The position numbers and the translations under genes were made by a program. The notes beneath the pieces were generated by a model. It searched no databases and was not told where the DNA came from. It saw nothing but the letters and a program-made list of their open reading frames with translations. Of a stretch of 64,000 nucleotides of DNA, positions 1,538 to 63,928 are shown in pieces (positions within the stretch are counted from its first letter, which is position 1; every line of letters starts with the position of its first letter). Origin of the DNA: a virus; the IMG/VR virus record IMGVR_UViG_3300050034_000403, positions 1-64,000 of that record. One strand, written 5' to 3'.

Positions 1538-1981
1538 ATCACAACGTAGTCAAAGTGCGTCGTAAAGATGCAACAAAGCGCAATAATTTTCTATTTAGGA
1601 GCGTTGCAGTAGCAAAGCAGTCGCAGTGCATCGCACAGATGCAACATTTGCACCACTTGAAAAATGCACAGAATTGGTAGCAGTAAGACAGTTGAAGTGC
1701 ACCGAGCAGGTGCAACACCTGGAACTAATCGACCGTGTAGTCAAAGTGCATCGAACAGATGCAACGTTATGCGCCGTGACTTTGGCCAAAGGAATCACCA
1801 CATAGCAATGCTGTTGAAGTGCATCGGATAGATGCAACCGGCAATTGATCGCAGCAACTTTTGGGGATCTGGAGCACTAGATAGTTAAAGTGCATCGCAT
1901 AGATGCAACTCCATCTTCAGCGCAGTATCGTTGCTGACAGTTCCGTCGCAACGCAGTATGAGTGCATCGAACAGATGCAAC
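1538..1981 (+). CRISPR. CRISPR-like array A, 7 divergent repeats
   Basis: Seven 37-base units end at 1574, 1645, 1716, 1765, 1838, 1909 and 1981. Spacing is 71, 71, 49, 73, 71 and 72 bases, so spacers are mostly 34-36 bases and one is about 12. Each unit ends in a hairpin such as TGCATCGAACAGATGCA followed by AC. No two neighbouring repeats are identical, but the stem is kept. Unit 3 changes both arms (TGCACC/GGTGCA) and unit 1 uses a G-U pair that exists only in plus-strand RNA. The leader lies on the left, so transcription is rightward. The repeats match those of array C in reverse orientation. No cas gene is adjacent. Confidence 0.8.
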
Positions 1982-4573: not shown

Positions 4574-7285
4574 TTAGTCTTCTGTTCCAGAATCATCTTC
4601 CGTTGTCGTATCGTCCGTCTCTGGCTCGTCCTGGTCTGGTGAAGTCGCATCAGACTCTCCCGCATCTGGCGCTGTTTCGTCAGGCGTCTCATCCTGTGCG
4701 CCCTGCTGCTGTAGTTGTTGCTGCCGCTTCAGTGCTTCCTGCCGCAGTTGCTGCAACGTCTTGGGCGTCGACGCTGTAGCGCCGCTGCCAGCCACAAAAG
4801 CCGTAAGGGCTTGCGACACTGGAAACTTCTTTTTCTTTGCAGCTTTCACCATCGTATTCAAGTTCTGCGTAAAAACTGCTTTCTCTTCTTCCGGAAGACG
4901 ATTGAACATCGCGACTTCTCTTGGTGTAACCTTTGCAAGCCAGTTGGTCACTTCAGGTCGTTCTAACAAAGCGGCAAGTGCATGAGAACCAGCAAGAATC
5001 ACCGGAGCCATCGCAACTTCTGCAAACGCATATCCTGGATGGCCCATTCCAGCCGACATAATCGACATAGGAACTGTCCAGAAAAGCGAGTTGAGCGTAC
5101 GTCTAATACCTTGCTGGCGAAAGCTTTCTGCCGTCGACGCAATACCCGCTTTTATGTTTGCCAAACGATCTGCGGGGGTAACCGTCTGATCCTTCGGCCG
5201 GTCCGGTGGAGCAACGCGTTCGGCTGGTGCAACCGTTCCTTCAGCTGGCGCGGGAGGTTCAGGCTCCGTTTGCAGACGGTATCCTGGACGCAAGTCGTCC
5301 TCCGTCGGAGGCTCTGGCTCTGGCTTCAAGCGATAACCTTCGCGCAAATCGTCTTCCGAGGGAGGTGATGGAATCTGCTTTCTTGCCTTGCGAAGCTGAT
5401 CCTCCGTCTGCATTTTTTTCAGTTGTTCCCGCCGCGCCTGTACCTTCTCGTAGTCTTTGACTAACGAAGGGTCGTATACTTGCGCCGCATTCAAACGCTC
5501 TCGGTCATTCTCCTCGTCGAACTGCTCGGGATTGGCCTCCCGCTTGCGAATCTCGTCTTGCGTTTTTGGAACATGCCGTTCCCGTCCAAATGCCTTTTGG
5601 TATTTCTGCGTCTCCTCGCGAGCAGATTTCAAGTCATCCAGCGCCCCTGCGTTCAAAGACGCTCTTGTTTCGGCCTGATCGAGCGTCTTGAGAAGCTGCT
5701 TCATCTCGCCAAGCAAAGGACCTTCGTACTTTCCGCTGTAAACGTTACGGCCAACAATTGATCTTGCACGATGAACCTGTTCTGCCGGGATTGCAGCCCC
5801 TGCTTGCGGATTGAAATCAATAGGCTCTGGTTCAAAACCGTTGGTCGAGGCAATCTTGTCGACTTCTGCTCTTTTCTCTGGGGGAAGATCCCAATAATCT
5901 TCTTTGTACCCCTGCGATTTCATAATCGCTGCACGATCTTTTGCATACTGCGATTCGGGAGGTGCATCTTCCGGATCGGGGGTAAGCTGGTTAACCATTC
6001 TTGTCACTTCGGGGGAGATCGCAGTGATCTTTTTCAGTGGTTCAGAAATCTCCCCGCCATCGATCGTGACTCCGGCCATCTTGTCGTGCCAGGGCTTCCA
6101 TGCCTTATCTTTTGCTGCCTTGGCTTTGGCTTTGGTGGCATCTTCCTTGCCATAATAGGCGCTTGTATCCTGCTGAAGTCCCGCTTCTTCTGCACGCCGC
6201 AGTTCAAGCGCATGATCGGTTGCAGCGTTTTCCTGCGCAATCTGATCGGCAGCGGCCTTATGCTTTGCCCTAATTCTGTCGTTTTCCGCGCGAACTTTTT
6301 CGACCTCCGCAGCGTGCTTGGTACGCACGCGCGTATTATCCGCCCGCACTTTGGCGACATCGAGTCCATGCTTGGCCCGTTCGACTTCGTCGGTCGCTTT
6401 TACTTTGTCCGCACGCGTCAGCTCTTTCCCTGCCGTTTCGTGCAAAGCATCTTGCGTTTTCTCCAAGTGCTCACGTGCAGCATCCACATTGGCTTTTACT
6501 GTGCTTTGCGCAAGTTTTTTCAATCCGCGCGGCCCAGTACCGGTAATCGCTTCCGCAGCACCACGAGCCGCAGCGCCTCCTGCACCAAAAACTTTTTTAG
6601 TTGCGTGCGGCACTAAAAGCATTGCTGCATTGCCTGCAACAGTTCCGAGAGCACCAGCAATGTCGCCAGAACCCCATTGCGTACCGGCCTGTTCGCCCAC
6701 CTGCTGCCACCATGGACCCACACTAGGCACAGCCGTAGCAAGCGCATGAGCAGCCGTCTTTTGAGCATGTTCACGCGCAACGTATTTATTTGGTGCCGTA
6801 CGCGCTTGTTGAAATTCGCTGGCTGTCTGTTGCATTTGCTGCGACGTTGGATCAATCCAAAAACGCTTGGCAAGTAGACCAGCTCTGCCCGTCTTTTCAA
6901 CTACCTTTGCTTCTTCTGGATTCTGTGCCCCTTCTACTACCCCGTGATAAAGTCCGGACACTGCACCACCAACCGCCTGTCCAGCGCTTGACACAAATCT
7001 CGATGCTGCACCACCTACAGGCTTCGCAGCTTCTTCTGGCGCATACATCGGTCGTCCCGCAGCATTTTTTCCTGCGATGCGTACGCCAGGAGGAAGATTT
7101 GCGCTCCGCAATCCGGAGAGATTGCGCTTGATGACATCATCGCCCAGGTTCGAGTATTGCGGAAACGCTGCGCGGAAGCGCTTTGGATCGGAAAGGTTCT
7201 GAAGAATACGGTCATCCGACCAGTCTTTCAGACCGGGATACTTGGTGCGAACTTCCTGAACCGGATTCCATGCTTTGTCTGGCAT
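4574..7285 (-). CDS. Large internal virion / DNA-ejection protein candidate
   Basis: The 903-residue protein begins KAWNPVQEVRTKYPGLKDWSDD, with a following FPQYSNLGDDVIKRNL segment. It has Gly/Ala-rich regions, then a long charged coiled-coil stretch (about residues 235-390, rich in K/E/A: AKHGLDVAKVRADNTR, VEKVRAENDRIRAKHKAAAD). A Pro/Glu-rich repeat follows (PPSEDDLREGYRLKPEPEPP / PPTEDDLRPGYRLQTEPEPP), then a hydrophobic segment around VPMSIMSAGMGHPGYAFAEV and an acidic low-complexity tail. Length, composition and position after two similar genes fit the trio of ejection proteins of podoviruses. No lytic transglycosylase motif is seen. Confidence 0.55.
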   Translation of the reverse strand: MPDKAWNPVQEVRTKYPGLKDWSDDRILQNLSDPKRFRAAFPQYSNLGDDVIKRNLSGLRSANLPPGVRIAGKNAAGRPMYAPEEAAKPVGGAASRFVSSAGQAVGGAVSGLYHGVVEGAQNPEEAKVVEKTGRAGLLAKRFWIDPTSQQMQQTASEFQQARTAPNKYVAREHAQKTAAHALATAVPSVGPWWQQVGEQAGTQWGSGDIAGALGTVAGNAAMLLVPHATKKVFGAGGAAARGAAEAITGTGPRGLKKLAQSTVKANVDAAREHLEKTQDALHETAGKELTRADKVKATDEVERAKHGLDVAKVRADNTRVRTKHAAEVEKVRAENDRIRAKHKAAADQIAQENAATDHALELRRAEEAGLQQDTSAYYGKEDATKAKAKAAKDKAWKPWHDKMAGVTIDGGEISEPLKKITAISPEVTRMVNQLTPDPEDAPPESQYAKDRAAIMKSQGYKEDYWDLPPEKRAEVDKIASTNGFEPEPIDFNPQAGAAIPAEQVHRARSIVGRNVYSGKYEGPLLGEMKQLLKTLDQAETRASLNAGALDDLKSAREETQKYQKAFGRERHVPKTQDEIRKREANPEQFDEENDRERLNAAQVYDPSLVKDYEKVQARREQLKKMQTEDQLRKARKQIPSPPSEDDLREGYRLKPEPEPPTEDDLRPGYRLQTEPEPPAPAEGTVAPAERVAPPDRPKDQTVTPADRLANIKAGIASTAESFRQQGIRRTLNSLFWTVPMSIMSAGMGHPGYAFAEVAMAPVILAGSHALAALLERPEVTNWLAKVTPREVAMFNRLPEEEKAVFTQNLNTMVKAAKKKKFPVSQALTAFVAGSGATASTPKTLQQLRQEALKRQQQLQQQGAQDETPDETAPDAGESDATSPDQDEPETDDTTTEDDSGTED

Positions 7286-8812
7286 TTATCTCCACCCTGG
7301 CGGTAAAGCCCCCGAGGTACCCGGACGGTTTGTCTGCGGTGCAGGTGCCGGCGCGTTTCCGCCACCGCTAGGCGCATTAAGCCCCGCTTGGTGAGCCATT
7401 GCCCAAAGATTTCTTTTACGAGCCTTCATCGTCAGGTCTGCATAGTGAAGTGCGCTCTTCAGCGCCTGTGGAGAGTTTGACTCGGTAATGGATGATCTGA
7501 TCGCCGCAATTTCTCCTTGGGTTGCGCCAACGTTGGTAAACGCTCTTGCCATCTCGCCTTCAAGCGATGTTTTGACAGTTTCAAAATTCGTGGGCGCGGT
7601 TTCGCCCAAAGCTTTCGACCACGCCAAGCTTGCGCGATTAAACAAAGGAATACTTCCTGTGCCAAGGGTATCAACCAAGCTTCTGGCCAATTTCAAGTGA
7701 TCTTCAGCCGTTCCCAAAGCCGCTAAGTTTGATCCCAGTCCCTTCGGAATCAAAGCTTTATGCCCAGCGACGTTGATCTGATAACCGACGCTTGCCGGAG
7801 TAGTGTACTTACCCCGCTCGGCTTTTCCTGCAGACACGACCATGGTTTGGTTCAGATTGTCAGGATTCACGACAACCATTGGTCGTGCTTGTGCGGACGC
7901 CACCATACGAGCTTCGCCAGGGATAACGCTGGTTTGGCGGATATACTCGGGATAGCTTTTGAGCGCAGCCTGTTCCTCTGGACTTAACTCTTGCCCTTGA
8001 TTTTTTTTGACCAGGGCACGCATATACTCTGGACCAGGCGAAAGCGGGCGCTGCTCTGGGGGAGTGTAACCCTCCGGCATCGGCTCGGCGGTGATTGCTT
8101 CCGTCAGCGAATTCTGCATCGGCTGGTAATACTTACCATCAGCTCCCTTATACGGTTTTGTTCCCGCGAGGGGCTTGAGCATAGTCTTTTTGTCTGTGGT
8201 GCCCAGAACAGTATCCAGATAGTTATCCGTCAGCTTTTTAATTTCTTCTGGCGCTGCGTCTGGATGAAATCTTTTGATGGCATCCATACCACCCTGAACA
8301 GTTTCCATCATGCCAGCCGTGCCGGCTCGTGCTTTCTGAATTGCTTGATCTGCTTGCTGCTTCTCTGTCAAAGGTGCTGGCGCTGCTCCAGCCATCATTT
8401 GGGCTTCTGCTCGTGCGCGCAACTCCCCAGGCGTGCGCGGGGGCTTAACCGGCGCCGCTTGGCCTCTGGTCTGCAATGTCGGCTGATATCCGGGAGGTGC
8501 TGGAAGCTGTGTCGGTTCCGCTTTCGTCAGATGGAGCAAGTGCCCGAACTTTTGCATGGCGCCGGGCTGTTTGGCAAACATGCTGTTCCGGGCTTCAAGA
8601 GCTTGCGCAAGGTTCTGTTGCACTGCGTCTCGCTCTTTGCTTCCTTCTGGGAACGTCGCTAACTTCTGCTGCAGATTGCCAATGTTTGTCTGAAGCTCAT
8701 TGAAATTGGTGCCAAATTCCTTATCCGAAAGGTCTTCCTTCCGTGCCTGCCGATGTGCGGCAAGTTGACTTCCCAGATTCCATCCCGCATTCCATGCATC
8801 GCCGCTTGCCAT
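7286..8812 (-). CDS. Internal virion / ejection protein candidate
   Basis: The 508-residue, Ala/Gln/Lys-rich, mainly helical protein starts immediately upstream of the 903-residue gene, with its stop abutting that gene's start. The N-terminal AWNAGWNLGSQLAAHRQAR is typical of phage internal proteins. Later segments are coiled-coil-like (QTNIGNLQQKLATFPEGSKE), Pro-rich linkers, and a C-terminal helical domain with AFTNVGATQGEIAAIRSSIT. There are no enzyme motifs or signal peptide. With the genes at 8823 and 4574 it forms a compact three-gene block that probably encodes the inner core ejected with DNA. Confidence 0.5.
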   Translation of the reverse strand: MASGDAWNAGWNLGSQLAAHRQARKEDLSDKEFGTNFNELQTNIGNLQQKLATFPEGSKERDAVQQNLAQALEARNSMFAKQPGAMQKFGHLLHLTKAEPTQLPAPPGYQPTLQTRGQAAPVKPPRTPGELRARAEAQMMAGAAPAPLTEKQQADQAIQKARAGTAGMMETVQGGMDAIKRFHPDAAPEEIKKLTDNYLDTVLGTTDKKTMLKPLAGTKPYKGADGKYYQPMQNSLTEAITAEPMPEGYTPPEQRPLSPGPEYMRALVKKNQGQELSPEEQAALKSYPEYIRQTSVIPGEARMVASAQARPMVVVNPDNLNQTMVVSAGKAERGKYTTPASVGYQINVAGHKALIPKGLGSNLAALGTAEDHLKLARSLVDTLGTGSIPLFNRASLAWSKALGETAPTNFETVKTSLEGEMARAFTNVGATQGEIAAIRSSITESNSPQALKSALHYADLTMKARKRNLWAMAHQAGLNAPSGGGNAPAPAPQTNRPGTSGALPPGWR

Positions 8813-43560: not shown

Positions 43561-43660
43561 CGCGGGCCAAAGGCAGGAATTCGAACCGACGACCCTCTCC
43601 GCAACAGGTGCGCCCACCTTTACACGGAGCCGCTCTACCACTGAGCTACTAAGGTCCGCG
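43561..43660 (-). tRNA. tRNA-like sequence, probably degenerate or chimeric
   Basis: On the minus strand there is a good D-arm (GCTCAGTGGTAGAGC), a perfect five-pair stem CTCCG/CGGAG in the anticodon-stem position, and a T-loop GGTTCGAAT. The anticodon loop is 23 bases and contains a hairpin AGGTG GGCG CACCT. The T-stem arms (GTCGG and TCCTG) do not pair. An outer helix CGCGG/CCGCG takes the place of a normal acceptor. Alternatively GTA in TGTAA could be a tyrosine anticodon in a type II tRNA. Most likely a decayed or chimeric tRNA. Confidence 0.45.
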
Positions 43661-45060: not shown

Positions 45061-45261
45061 ATGGCACGCATGACAATTGCACTTCCCGCTGAGATTGTAA
45101 AAATCGTCAATGACACTGCCCAAAAAGAGTCGGTTCCAAAAACAGAGATCATTCGACGTATGTTCACTGTGTTGAAGGTAGCCCAGGAAGAAAAAGACAA
45201 GGGGAACTCTCTTGGAATCATCAACGGAGAGAAGGTTATTGCCCGCATTGTTGGTGTATAA
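45061..45261 (+). CDS. Ribbon-helix-helix DNA-binding protein
   Basis: The ATG at 45061 follows AGGAG. The 66-residue protein begins with the strand RMTIALPAEIVKIVNDTAQK, then ESVPKTEIIRRMFTVLKVA, an RHH fold, and ends LGIINGEKVIARIVGV, an end often seen in RHH proteins of phages and cyanobacteria. Two direct repeats TAGTGCGATTT lie just upstream (about 45012-45032) and may be its operator. The membrane-protein gene follows after five bases. Confidence 0.7.
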   Translation: MARMTIALPAEIVKIVNDTAQKESVPKTEIIRRMFTVLKVAQEEKDKGNSLGIINGEKVIARIVGV

Positions 45262-45637: not shown

Positions 45638-46262
45638 GTTGCGTCTATTCGGCGCACTGTAGAAGCTGTTTGATTGTTGCGCTTATCCAGCGCACTATGA
45701 CTATCTTGCAACCTTTTTATAGCCAAAAAGCCGTGATGATTCTCGTGTTGCATCTACTCGATGCACTGAAACTGCCTTGTGACTTTGTGCTATTCCTTGA
45801 CGCGTTGCGCTTTCTCGGCGCACTCATACGTCTATAAATATCCCTTGTGTATTATTGCGCTTATTCAGTGTATTGTTGCGCTTATCCAGCGCACTCCTAC
45901 TTTGTCGCACATGTTGCATCTCTCCGATGCACTTTGACTGTACACCCCTACCTATCCATGTTGCATCTGCTCGATGCACTCATACTGTGCTCCTCAACCT
46001 ATCCATGTTGCGCCTATGCGGTGCACTGAAACCGCATTACTGCGAAATCCAAGGCTCACGTACGTTGCATCTTCTCGATGCACTTCAACCAGTCTGCTAT
46101 ACAGCAGACAAAAACGAATGCCAATGGAGGTTGCATCTGTTCGATGCACTCATACGGATTTGGTACGGGATGCTGTTGTTGCGCTTATCCAGCGCACTAG
46201 AACATCTTGTCAGCTCATTCTTCAGGTTGCGCCTGCTCGACGCACTCATATGACACCTCAAT
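45638..46262 (-). CRISPR. CRISPR-like array B, degraded (about 13 units)
   Basis: Units in the plus-strand reading start at 45638, 45676, 45747, 45804, 45854, 45875, 45913, 45960, 46007, 46064, 46130, 46178 and 46226. Spacing is irregular (38, 71, 57, 50, 21, 38, 47, 47, 57, 66, 48, 48), so spacers range from none to 34 bases. Only the hairpin and the following CACT are well kept; for example TGCGCT and AGCGCA pair at 45676, 45875 and 46178. The repeat family is the same as in arrays A and C. The array looks collapsed by deletions. A weak leader with TTGACA and CAAAG lies on the right. Confidence 0.7.
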
Positions 46263-46299: not shown

Positions 46300-46827
46300 T
46301 TAGCTCCGCGATGCCAGAATTTTGGTTGCCTCAGTCAATGTAATCATAAGCGTTTGTGGATTGATCGGCGAAGCGATGAAGCCGTATTTCTCGTAGAACT
46401 GTTTTGCATCCTTAGAAATTGCATTTACCAAAACCGCACGAATGCCGGCAATCTCAGCAGCCTGCAAAGTGCGCAAAACCGCATCCCGCAAAAGATCCGC
46501 CCCAATCCCGCGATGCTGAAAGTGTTCATCCACAGCCAGTCGTCCGATCAGCATCACGGGCACTGGATCGGGCATGTTGCGCTTGATGCGTGTGGGTGCC
46601 TCGACATGTGCCACAGCACCAGTCGCCAGCGCATAAAAACCAACGACATGACCTTCTGAGCACACCACTTTAGTACGCGATGCTCCATTCTTCTCGTTTT
46701 GAAGTGCCCGCGTCTTCAACCACAGATTGAGAGATGATTCGCCACAGCAGAATTGCGTAAGATCATGTTCCACTGTCAGCTTTTCTGGAGCGGTAATACG
46801 GATCTTGGACGCCTCTACTCCTCCCAC
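46300..46827 (-). CDS. GNAT acetyltransferase toxin (TacT-like)
   Basis: The 175-residue protein has a GNAT fold: LTVEHDLTQFCCGESSLNLW, VVGFYALATGAVAHVEAPTR, then VPVMLIGRLAVDEHFQHRGI with the acetyl-CoA loop QHRGIGADLL, and AVLVNAISKDAKQFYEKYGF near the end. GNAT toxins of this type acetylate charged tRNA. Its partner, a DUF1778 protein, is encoded just upstream with a 13-base overlap. The module lies next to array B. Confidence 0.85.
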   Translation of the reverse strand: MGGVEASKIRITAPEKLTVEHDLTQFCCGESSLNLWLKTRALQNEKNGASRTKVVCSEGHVVGFYALATGAVAHVEAPTRIKRNMPDPVPVMLIGRLAVDEHFQHRGIGADLLRDAVLRTLQAAEIAGIRAVLVNAISKDAKQFYEKYGFIASPINPQTLMITLTEATKILASRS

Positions 46828-47161: not shown

Positions 47162-47443
47162 TTAGTACAGCTTGCGGCAGTCATAACACCAGAACCCGTC
47201 AGGCCGCTGGAAACCCTTGTGCCCCTTGTCGTGTGGGCATCTGGCAAGGCCAGCAGGACTCGAATCCGCGACAGGCCGATTATGAGTCGGTTGCTCTACC
47301 GGCTGAGCTACAGTCCCGCTGTTCCACTTCCGCGTGCGACACTCGGGATTACGGCATTGCGCGGGTATCGGTTTACGAACGTCTACCGGCCAAAGATACC
47401 CACACACGTCGCATCGATATGCCTCCATCTTAGTTTTGCCCAT
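47162..47443 (-). CDS. Zinc-ribbon ORF containing a tRNA-like sequence
   Basis: The frame of 93 residues begins MEAYRCDVCGYLWPVDVRKP, then IPAQCRNPECRTRKWN, a good zinc ribbon. It continues through a tRNA-like sequence (47246-47317), and ends LARCPHDKGHKGFQRPDGFW then CYDCRKLY, a second zinc motif. Either the frame is open across a real tRNA gene by chance or a tRNA-derived segment was inserted into a zinc-ribbon gene. Three palindromes lie directly upstream of its ATG. Confidence 0.45.
   Translation of the reverse strand: MGKTKMEAYRCDVCGYLWPVDVRKPIPAQCRNPECRTRKWNSGTVAQPVEQPTHNRPVADSSPAGLARCPHDKGHKGFQRPDGFWCYDCRKLY
47246..47317 (-). tRNA. tRNA-Met-like (anticodon CAT)
   Basis: On the minus strand: acceptor GGGACTG against TGGCCTT (one mismatch, several G-U), D-arm GCTCAGCCGGTAGAGC, anticodon stem ACCGA/TCGGC with loop CTCATAA, and T-arm GCGGA TTCGAGT CCTGC. 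The anticodon is CAT. The weak acceptor stem makes decay possible, but all four arms can form. It lies in frame within a zinc-ribbon ORF. Confidence 0.6.
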
Positions 47444-61147: not shown

Positions 61148-61828
61148 ATGGAAGCTGTTTCATATATGCGGTGTTCTGGCGAAAGCCAAGTTCTCGGCGA
61201 TACGTGGGAACGTCAGCGCGCAGTTATCGTTAAATATGCCGCCGCCAATGAAATTGCAATTGTCGATGAATTCCGGGATGAAGGCGTAACAGGCAAGATG
61301 GAGTTGGAAGGACGTGCCGGTCTTTCAGCCTGCATACAATTCATCCGTGAAAAGGGAATCAAGCTTGTTTTGGTTGAGTCCAGCGACAGATTGGCCCGCG
61401 ACATGATCGTGGCAGAAGTTGTTGTACGCGAGTTTCAAAAGATTGGAGTTCGCGTCATTTCTGCGTCTGGCGGTATCGATCTAACCGAGGGAGACGATTC
61501 CAACCCCACGGCTAAACTAATTCGTCAGATTCTAGCGGCCGTCGCCGAGTTTGATCGCTGCGTAATCGTACTTAAGCTACGCGGTGCGCGCCAGCGCAAA
61601 AAGGCTAGGGGAGAACGAGGAGATGGCCGGCACGCCTTTGGAGAAAAGCCTGGAGAAGCCGTGGTTCTCGCACAGATTCGTGCGTTAAAGGCCCAAGGAG
61701 AGACGATCAGGACCATTGCCGACACCTTGAACGCCGCCGCCATTCCAACGCGCATGGGGGGCACCTGGAAGGCCGGGACGGTGGCAAAGATCCTTGCTCG
61801 TGAGAAATTTCACAGCGCTTGCGCGTGA
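61148..61828 (+). CDS. Small serine recombinase (resolvase family)
   Basis: The ATG at 61148 follows AGGAG. The 226-residue protein has the resolvase catalytic start EAVSYMRCSGESQVLGDTWE with Ser10, EFRDEGVTGKMELEGRAGLS, and VLVESSDRLARDM (Asp80, Arg81, Arg84). The C-terminal recombinase/helix-turn-helix part is ALKAQGETIRTIADTLNAAA, IPTRMGGTWKAGTVAKILAR. It resembles serine integrases of the short type. It could integrate the phage or resolve dimers. It is 64 bases from the distal end of array C. Confidence 0.8.
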   Translation: MEAVSYMRCSGESQVLGDTWERQRAVIVKYAAANEIAIVDEFRDEGVTGKMELEGRAGLSACIQFIREKGIKLVLVESSDRLARDMIVAEVVVREFQKIGVRVISASGGIDLTEGDDSNPTAKLIRQILAAVAEFDRCVIVLKLRGARQRKKARGERGDGRHAFGEKPGEAVVLAQIRALKAQGETIRTIADTLNAAAIPTRMGGTWKAGTVAKILAREKFHSACA

Positions 61829-61891: not shown

Positions 61892-63195
61892 GTTGCATCT
61901 ATGCGATGCACTTCAACTGCATTGCTACCGATATGGTAGCGCTGTCGCTACGGATTTCGCGTTGCACTTATCCAGTGCACTTCAACTGCATTACTACGCT
62001 GGTGGGTCCTTGTAAGTTGCATCTACGCGATGCACTCAAACTGCTTTGATGCTTGCTACCTTTTGGCACATTTCCATTTTTCCAGTAGTTGCATCTATGC
62101 GATGCACTGAGACTATTTTGCGACACGGAGTTGAATCAAGAAGCAATAAGCCTGTTGCATCTATGCGATGCACTTTGACTGCTTTGCTATCCCACTAATA
62201 AGCCTTTGCAGGATCATTTTCCCAGTTGCATCTGCTCGATGCACTTTAACTACCTTGCGACCATGTGAGAATGCTGGTGGCTCTCTCTTGACGAAGTTGC
62301 ATCTGCTCGATGCACTCAAACTACATTGCGACACGGCTACGGAAGCCGTCTTGCTGCTGCTATGAATGTTGCATCTGTTCGATGCACTTTAACTACCTTG
62401 CGACGACTGTTTATGCTTTTGAACTCACACACTACGACCGTTGCATCTGTTCGATGCACTGAAACTACATTGCGACAGCAGAAAAAATCGAGAAATGATT
62501 CCGATACCATGTTGCATCTGCTCGATGCACTGAAACTACCTTGCGACGAAACCTGGAAAACCTGTCCACCGGGACCGTAATAGTTGCATCTGCTCGATGC
62601 ACTAAAACTATCTTGCGACGTTCGACTTCAGCCAAGAGAGACATGACCGCGAGTGTTGCATCTGTTCGATGCACTTAAACTATCTTGCGACCCTATAATT
62701 TGTCCAGACACTAGCGTCCACAACCGTTGCATCTGTTCGATGCACTGAAACTGCCTTGCGACGCATGTACTCCCAAAGCGTGTACTCTTGATGCAAGTTG
62801 CATCTGTTCGATGCACTGAAACTACATTGCGGCTTGGTGAGCCCTTGGAAAGTGTTAGCAGGTCATCAAGGTTGCATCTGTTCAATGCACTGAAACTATC
62901 TTGCGGCATGATCGAGCAGTTGAGCAATACAAGGTGCGATACGCGTTGCATCTGTTCGATGCACTTTAACTACCTTGCGACACGAAATTGCGGGACTCTT
63001 TTACCAGGTGATGGATGTTGCATCTGTTCGATGCACTGAAACTACATTGCGACCTAAACATCACCATGCAGGACAAGCTCGACCTCCAGTTGCATCTGTT
63101 CGATGCACTGAAACTACATTGTGACTCGCCACCTTCGGAAGAAACAAGAAGACCAGAAGTTGCATCTGTTCGATGCACTGAAACTACATTGCGGC
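61892..63195 (-). CRISPR. CRISPR array C, 19 repeats, 18 spacers
   Basis: 37-base repeats start at 61892, 61961, 62016, 62088, 62154, 62225, 62296, 62368, 62440, 62511, 62583, 62655, 62726, 62797, 62871, 62945, 63017, 63089 and 63159. Period is 69-74 except at the left end (55 and 66). Spacers are 18-37 bases, mostly 34-35, and all different. In the inferred RNA sense (minus strand) the repeat starts GTCGCAATGTAGTTTCAG and ends with hairpin TGCATCGAACAGATGCA plus AC. Right-hand repeats are nearly uniform; the leftmost seven are increasingly divergent, so the growth end is at the right, beside a leader promoter. No cas gene is adjacent. Confidence 0.95.
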
Positions 63196-63233
63196 TGCGC
63201 TCATTATAACGCTTTGCGATTGAAGAAGATCAA
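63196..63233 (-). promoter_or_regulatory. Leader promoter of array C
   Basis: On the minus strand TTGATC (63228-63233), 19 bases, TATAAT (63203-63208), ending seven bases before the first repeat. GCAAAGCGTTATAAT is shared almost fully with the leader of array A. This places the start of transcription at the array edge. Confidence 0.75.
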
Positions 63234-63382
63234 GGACGTTTTTCGCGAACCTCGCAAATCTGCGCTCTTCTAGTTGGGATGCTCGATACAATGCCCTCAT
63301 TATCTCCTTCAAAATCATTTTCTTACGCCTTGCGCGAACCTCCCGCCTTTTTCCGGCCGCTTAGGGTTCGCGGAAAACCAGC
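63234..63382. other. Non-coding leader-distal segment
   Basis: Between the leader promoter and the endolysin stop. It is A/T-rich with no open frame of protein-like composition. The repeated TTCGCGAACCT / TTGCGCGAACCT words could be part of a leader or terminator for the endolysin gene. Confidence 0.3.
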
Positions 63383-63928
63383 TCAAATCGTCGGTTGATA
63401 CGTGCCGGCCATCAATTGCTTGGCGATCACGTCGTTTTGGTTGGGCCATGCCGCACGGCGCGCCAACCCTTCTCGCTGCGCTTCCCGCACCGCATCCGCT
63501 TTGATCCATCGATCATAACTCTGGTACTGGATCAGCCGCATCCATTCCAGCACCAGCGTGCTGATCGCTTGATTCACAGCCGCCAGCGTGCCCGGTCCAA
63601 AAAGGCCATCCACCTCCACAGTGTGGCCCGCATGGATCAGCGCGGCCTGCAAATGCTCAATACCGGTCTCTGTGCCCTGGTTTACCCCATCGTCAAGCAG
63701 CTTGGTGGCCACGTCCTGGTTCACGATCTGGCTGTAGAGCGGATTCCAAAAATACTTCAGATAAAGCGCGGTCGCTTCCTCGGCCGTCTTTGGCTGGGCA
63801 ATCTTAAGAAGCTTGCACGTGGCCGCTGACCATCCGAACTTGGTCTTGCCGCCAGGGTCACCCTTCAGGGTTCCCACGCCCCCCTCATGCGCCAGCACCA
63901 CCTTGATCGCCACATTGAAATCAGCCAT
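63383..63928 (-). CDS. Endolysin, GH108-type muramidase with peptidoglycan-binding domain
   Basis: The 181-residue protein has the GH108 pattern: VVLAHEGGVGTLKGDPGGKT with the likely catalytic Glu at residue 15, KFGWSAATCKL, AEEATALYLKYFWNPLYSQI, VATKLLDDGVNQGTETGIEH. A PG_binding_3-type C-terminal part follows (ALIHAGHTVEVDGLFGPGTL, AAVNQAISTLVLEWMRLI). It cuts the glycan chain of the cell wall at lysis. There is no signal peptide, so export needs a holin. It lies apart from the holin-like genes at 19-20 kb. Confidence 0.85.
   Translation of the reverse strand: MADFNVAIKVVLAHEGGVGTLKGDPGGKTKFGWSAATCKLLKIAQPKTAEEATALYLKYFWNPLYSQIVNQDVATKLLDDGVNQGTETGIEHLQAALIHAGHTVEVDGLFGPGTLAAVNQAISTLVLEWMRLIQYQSYDRWIKADAVREAQREGLARRAAWPNQNDVIAKQLMAGTYQPTI

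Follow-up and report, generated by a model that had tools for sequence, protein, structure and literature searches.

The window analysed here comprises positions 1-64000 of the virus record IMGVR_UViG_3300050034_000403 (89,228 bp; named G000), a phage contig from a virus of soil Acidobacteria, and carries near its right end a CRISPR array of direct repeats separated by unique spacers of similar length (Table 1). On the + strand the repeat reads GTTGCATCTGTTCGATGCACTGAAACTACATTGCGAC; the predicted RNA repeat is GUCGCAAUGUAGUUUCAGUGCAUCGAACAGAUGCAAC, with inferred transcription from right to left. A search with the consensus repeat, allowing up to 3 mismatches, returned 14 matches in the 89-kb record, as against 0 for the reversed (not complemented) consensus used as a control, which bears out the proposal of an initial sequence-only reading that a 19-repeat CRISPR array lies here in a phage. 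Comparison of the array with INPHARED and PLSDB gave no match. The spacers are unique and mostly of 34-35 nt, the lengths found being 18, 29 and 32-37 nt. Repeats in the right half share a mean pairwise identity of 0.91, those in the left half one of 0.80; this marks the right end as the young end and agrees with the earlier description of the left end as degenerate and leader-distal. The right-hand repeats are indeed 37 nt long and more alike, but "uniform" was slightly generous, given that 16 of the 19 repeats are distinct; the repeats vary more than would be expected of a freshly growing array. A serine recombinase, with homologues in several array-bearing relatives, is encoded directly to the left of the array (window 61148-61828).

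Table 1. Coordinates of arrays, leader, phage-matching spacer and cas genes in G000 and in two related phage loci
Feature	Position	Strand	Description
Main CRISPR array	61892..63195	-	19 repeats of 37 nt, 18 spacers
Leader of main array	63196..63385	-	TATAAT-like box and distal inverted repeat
Phage-matching spacer of main array	62620..62654	-	protospacer in phage contig G014, 29/35 identities, 5' flank CTTC
Second array	1538..1981	+	7 repeats, opposite strand; leader-like flank (TATAAC element) at lower end
Third array	45638..46262	-	12 strongly degenerate repeats, irregular spacing, compensatory stem changes
Fourth array	66481-67222 of record		
Fifth array	88621-89228 of record		runs off contig end
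L108/L110 effector	6001-8262 and to 8292		
L108/L110 adaptation proteins			Cas4 211 aa, Cas1 343-346 aa, Cas2 96 aa

The leader lies at the end with the most uniform repeats. Its TATAAT-like box, the reverse complement of ATTATA at 63203-63208, is placed just outside the first repeat, and its distal inverted repeat is GCGCGAACCTC..GGGTTCGCG; in the conserved right flank the inverted repeat CCGCGAACCTC..GAGGTTCGCGG is situated farther out than the box. The leader is conserved at the leader end of otherwise divergent arrays in related phages and in a bacterial metagenome-assembled genome (MAG). A strict sigma-70 scan called no promoter. Given a right-hand leader, the RNA repeat terminates in a hairpin followed by AC, adjoining the spacer. 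The repeat stem TGCATC..GATGCA varies to TGCACT..AGTGCA or TGCGCT..AGCGCA with pairing kept, and Watson-Crick pairing at stem positions 6-16, 7-15 and 8-14 is seen in 254, 258 and 251 of the 265 unique repeats, compared with means of 218, 162 and 172 of 265 after shuffling one side. Since these 265 repeats were mostly selected for having at least 5 of 6 stem pairs, the set gathered without a stem requirement is the fairer test, and it shows the same covariation. The case for an RNA structure rests on this covariation because the fold of a single repeat is not exceptional relative to shuffles (z -1.15). Leader, covarying stems and the side of the 5' TTC-like PAM described below agree in placing the predicted hairpin at the 3' end of the repeat RNA, as had been proposed earlier.

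Variable repeats with a compensating hairpin also occur in other structured elements, and one might ask whether the locus represents iterons, RNA anti-CRISPR repeats, TIGR arrays or another tandem structured repeat rather than CRISPR. We rejected this as exceedingly improbable in light of the regular, unique spacers of 34-35 nt, the leader at the uniform end, the relatives in which a Cas12-like effector and Cas4-Cas1-Cas2 are adjacent, and the spacers whose matches lie in genes of phages and share a single flanking motif.

The sequence-only reading had noted one array; this array is real, but four more of the same repeat family had been missed, and G000 thus has at least 5, two of them inside the window besides the main array. 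The third array is probably a relic. On one flank of it a short protein (45061-45261), ribbon-helix-helix-like by eye and with no Pfam match, is encoded, and on the other a GNAT acetyltransferase (46300-46827); the two are possibly a toxin-antitoxin pair. The repeat family is found in about 20 IMG/VR contigs, often as several arrays per contig and with up to 25 repeats per array. Its 278 unique spacers are mainly of 34 nt (115), 35 nt (74), 33 nt (34) and 36 nt (27), with few of any other length. Most of these contigs share one set of phage genes, namely portal, terminase, replication and others, which identifies them as one phage lineage, and the portals of the related contigs are 83-96% identical to that of G000. 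Four array-carrying contigs (G009, G014, G017 and G020) have different structural genes.

PADLOC detected no Cas effector, Cas1 or Cas2 among all 97 predicted proteins of the 89-kb record; hence the earlier observation that the window contains no cas gene extends to the whole record. Likewise, Pfam searches with the 63 proteins to the right of about 41.4 kb gave no effector, a profile of the effector described below had no match in the record, and Cas1 (PF01867) is absent from it as well as from the related contigs G004, G016 and G018. Two candidates were discarded: weak CARF/CasR/Csa3 matches of one structural-region protein were dismissed as evidence for a cas locus, and a PDDEXK nuclease beside RecT (87238-88287 of the record) was rejected as a Cas4, being likely the exonuclease partner of RecT. 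The record, however, ends at a contig edge, and next to the same array cas genes do occur in G004 as well as in five further related contigs. A protein scan of related contigs recovered from G004 a 760-aa protein with a Cas12f1-like TNB domain (PF07282, E 3e-13). G004 is 99.4-99.7% identical to G000 over G000 55,272-79,694, main array included, and 91-94% identical over the last 2 kb before the G000 contig end. In the last array common to both, the first two spacers are the same and two further ones are shared, the others being exchanged; the effector of G004 is situated about 0.1 kb past this array, and the G000 contig stops inside it. This suggests that the effector is probably missing from G000 only because the contig stops, and that the array should not be taken as one without an effector, as it had been at first. 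Given that similarity near the end of G000 is only 91-94%, the presence of the effector in G000, which we infer from the near-identical G004, is likely rather than demonstrated.

All six effector-bearing phage contigs have an array of the family near the 3' end of the effector gene. The proteins are 745-774 aa long, with 57-64% identity to the G004 protein; stored fragments of the array carriers G001, G006, G011 and G021 lack the effector. In its bearers it has the features of a type V effector, i.e. a single protein with a C-terminal split RuvC, a TNB zinc domain and D-E-D motifs, the acidic triad in G004 being D433-E616-D704; in two members glutamate takes the first RuvC position (GLEIGW). 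Cas12u1/Cas12f profiles of PADLOC match the C-terminal half at E 1e-23 to 2e-31. In a PDB profile search Cas12m came first (E 6e-13), followed by TnpB (2e-3), Cas12n and Cas12f; no Cas12j chain, if the library has one, appeared among the matches to E 10. Foldseek gave Cas12m2 (8hhl, E 2e-11) as the top match together with Cas12m (8pm4), at a TM of 0.2 and with a poor AlphaFold model (mean pLDDT 54.5, pTM 0.28) that is too weak for detailed comparison. The sequence match spans only residues ~365 to 730, the N-terminal half having no sequence match to any known Cas12, and a core-motif scan for further relatives of the effector gave no new lineage. The type, which the sequence-only reading held could not be told, is indicated by the effector of the near-identical phage to be type V, closest to Cas12m.

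Among known systems, V-M (Cas12m, formerly V-U1) is thus the closest one with a solved structure, in sequence profile as well as in fold, and it shares with the present effector a GxDxGW RuvC-I motif, a 5'-TTN-type PAM and carriage on mobile elements (PMC11656645). Cas12m clades with a D-E-D triad exist, and Cas12m2 has H-D-D (PMC10442227, PMC11013384). A guide that needs no tracrRNA and interference through binding of DNA are further traits of V-M. Unlike V-M, the proteins found here exceed the approximately 600 aa of Cas12m2, lack similarity to Cas12m over the full length, include members with glutamate at the first RuvC position and in two cases lie beside type I-C-like Cas4-Cas1-Cas2. Being nearest to Cas12m, yet longer and matched in the C-terminal half only, the effector is best filed as a V-M-related variant.

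The two last-mentioned cases are the loci L108 and L110, on phage contigs of the family, which encode a full-length Cas1 after the effector, in the gene run effector-cas4-cas1-cas2-leader-array. Their Cas1 is of the I-C kind (TIGR03640, E 5e-140), Cas4 is Cas4c (E 1e-75) and Cas2 is Cas2c (E 2e-35); this set of type I-C adaptation signatures was found in these two loci only, and the module is of type I-C ancestry. What differs from type I-C is the setting: the genes follow a type V effector in a single run that contains neither Cascade nor Cas3 genes. Repeats are identical throughout arrays of two sister phages (11/11 in L108 and 22/22 in G006), in contrast to the variable repeats of G000, which fits recent array growth in L108 and G006. 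In the 11-repeat array beside cas1-cas2 of L108 (10393-11146), one spacer is present twice in succession.

We compared the 278 family spacers with about 3.7 Mb of related phage DNA in which arrays had been masked. Five of the 278 match phage DNA, while ten shuffles and the reversed spacers gave 0 (an earlier control run with 251 spacers gave 0-1). One match belongs to a spacer of the main array and is imperfect; hence the spacer search suggested by the sequence-only reading succeeded for the repeat family, but for the main array itself produced this single match. A spacer of G001 matches G009 (30/34), and 3 spacers of a chromosomal array with the same repeat in a member of the Acidobacteriales match the phage family of G000, one of them hitting a 266-aa gene at G000 75710-76507 (30/33). 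A codon-degenerate scan for one spacer matched only the arrays themselves. In guide orientation, the 5' flank of the protospacers has T in 11/13, T in 8/13 and C in 10/13 sites at -3, -2 and -1 (mostly TTC), these 13 sites deriving from only five spacers. The type I-C Cas4-Cas1-Cas2 complex selects and processes GAA/TTC PAMs (PMC6519985), and the PAM of Cas12m2 is 5'-TTN (PMC10442227). As TTC complements the GAA of the former and agrees with the latter, the flank fits both.

The exact repeat pattern was not found in bacterial genome contigs, and a looser pattern recovered a single MAG, the above member of the Acidobacteriales, whose array shares its contig with the nuo operon. No Cas1 and no effector turned up in this MAG, which is incomplete. 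Effector homologues are also encoded in two other Acidobacteriota genomes, next to 2-3 repeats and on bacterial contigs that lack phage genes, implying that the system is also present, albeit rarely, in bacterial chromosomes (1/399 genomes of the class and 2/149 relatives). Extending the effector search to the rest of the phage genome and to hosts, as first proposed, yielded no effector in G000 itself and a type V effector in its relatives and in these two genomes. The bacterial homologue at L301 (2566-2733, 155-2373), with three repeats, has its last RuvC aspartate seemingly replaced and may be a decaying copy.

This distribution bears on the idea that the arrays are cas-less mini-CRISPR arrays for which the host provides both an effector and the machinery of adaptation. 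Mini-arrays of this kind are borne by archaeal viruses (PMC6858448). The lack of cas genes in the G000 record, the same-repeat array on an Acidobacteriales chromosome and the effector in two Acidobacteriota genomes would be in keeping with such borrowing. Both kinds of arrays are carried by viruses and have spacers that match related viruses. We nevertheless consider borrowing unlikely: the effector is encoded by the phage family, near-identical G004 included, its bacterial homologues are rare and adjoin only a few repeats, and the MAG with the chromosomal array, though incomplete, shows no Cas1 or effector. Moreover, a mini-CRISPR array is very short and sits in a cas-less virus dependent on host machinery, unlike the long arrays found here, several to a genome, in a family with its own effector.

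To a similarly low degree we credit the possibility that formerly functional arrays have decayed and no longer produce guides. In favor of decay, repeats are degenerate and spacers irregular both at the left end of the main array and in the 45.6-kb array, and cas1 is absent from the G000 record. Against it, the leader is conserved, the stems are preserved and sister phages have arrays of wholly identical repeats. Furthermore, spacer content at internal positions of the main array and of the 88621-89228 array differs between G000 and G004, with one unit lost, one spacer replaced and several exchanged; such differences between genomes that are ~99.5% identical indicate that the arrays still turn over.

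Hence, we favor, with a probability of roughly 0.83, the reading that the main array is one of at least 5 that serve a type V CRISPR-Cas system encoded by temperate phages of Acidobacteriota. The apparent orphan array in the window very probably belongs to a CRISPR system that the virus owns and directs against rival viruses. Transcription would start in the conserved leader at the right end and proceed leftward through the array. A single Cas12m-related effector of ~750 aa, encoded by the same phage beside its last array, would bind the conserved 3' hairpin and serve all arrays in trans, and the guides would lead it to sites adjoining the 5'-TTC-like PAM in the DNA of competing phages that share these hosts. 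In G000 the array would be expressed, its crRNAs processed and the target either cut or only bound. Spacers would be captured by the type I-C-derived Cas4-Cas1-Cas2, which is present on some phages of the family and may otherwise have been lost or be supplied in trans.

Virus-borne arrays, phage Cas12 systems and multi-array phages are already known (PMC6858448, PMC12607003, PMC11656645). Phage class 2 systems include Cas12j/CasPhi and Cas12L/Caslambda; multi-array jumbo phages and viral Cas12m-like proteins have been reported as well (PMC12607003). As in these, a compact type V effector and arrays are carried by a phage, with some arrays far from cas genes, but here the effector is of another lineage, the carriers are temperate Acidobacteriota phages and two relatives have an adaptation module. 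In the open-access literature we found no account of this effector lineage or of its pairing with a type I-C-like Cas4-Cas1-Cas2 on phages. We see an even chance that the long Cas12m-related effector, the type I-C-derived Cas4-Cas1-Cas2 and the several arrays per genome constitute a new subtype of type V that belongs to a family of temperate phages. If so, these phages would acquire and use adaptive immunity against rival phages, and a host bacterium would keep a same-repeat array against them. With its own acquisition genes, a Cas12m-like effector, several arrays and a repeat that also occurs in an array on a host-type chromosome, such a phage lineage would allow adaptive immunity between phages to be tested directly. 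The small V-M effectors would then be linked with a complete adaptation module, and Cas12m could be compared with a relative whose RuvC is intact.

Two further features of the phage were noted. The window encodes a tRNA-Tyr (43564-43655) and a tRNA-Met (47242-47317). The primase/helicase at G000 78498-81158 (L010:4502-7159) has an insertion of ~310 aa that is absent from its relatives, which measure about 570 aa; the ends of the insertion, FC|YAPDTEVLTPSGW ... VCGQ|C, are intein-like.
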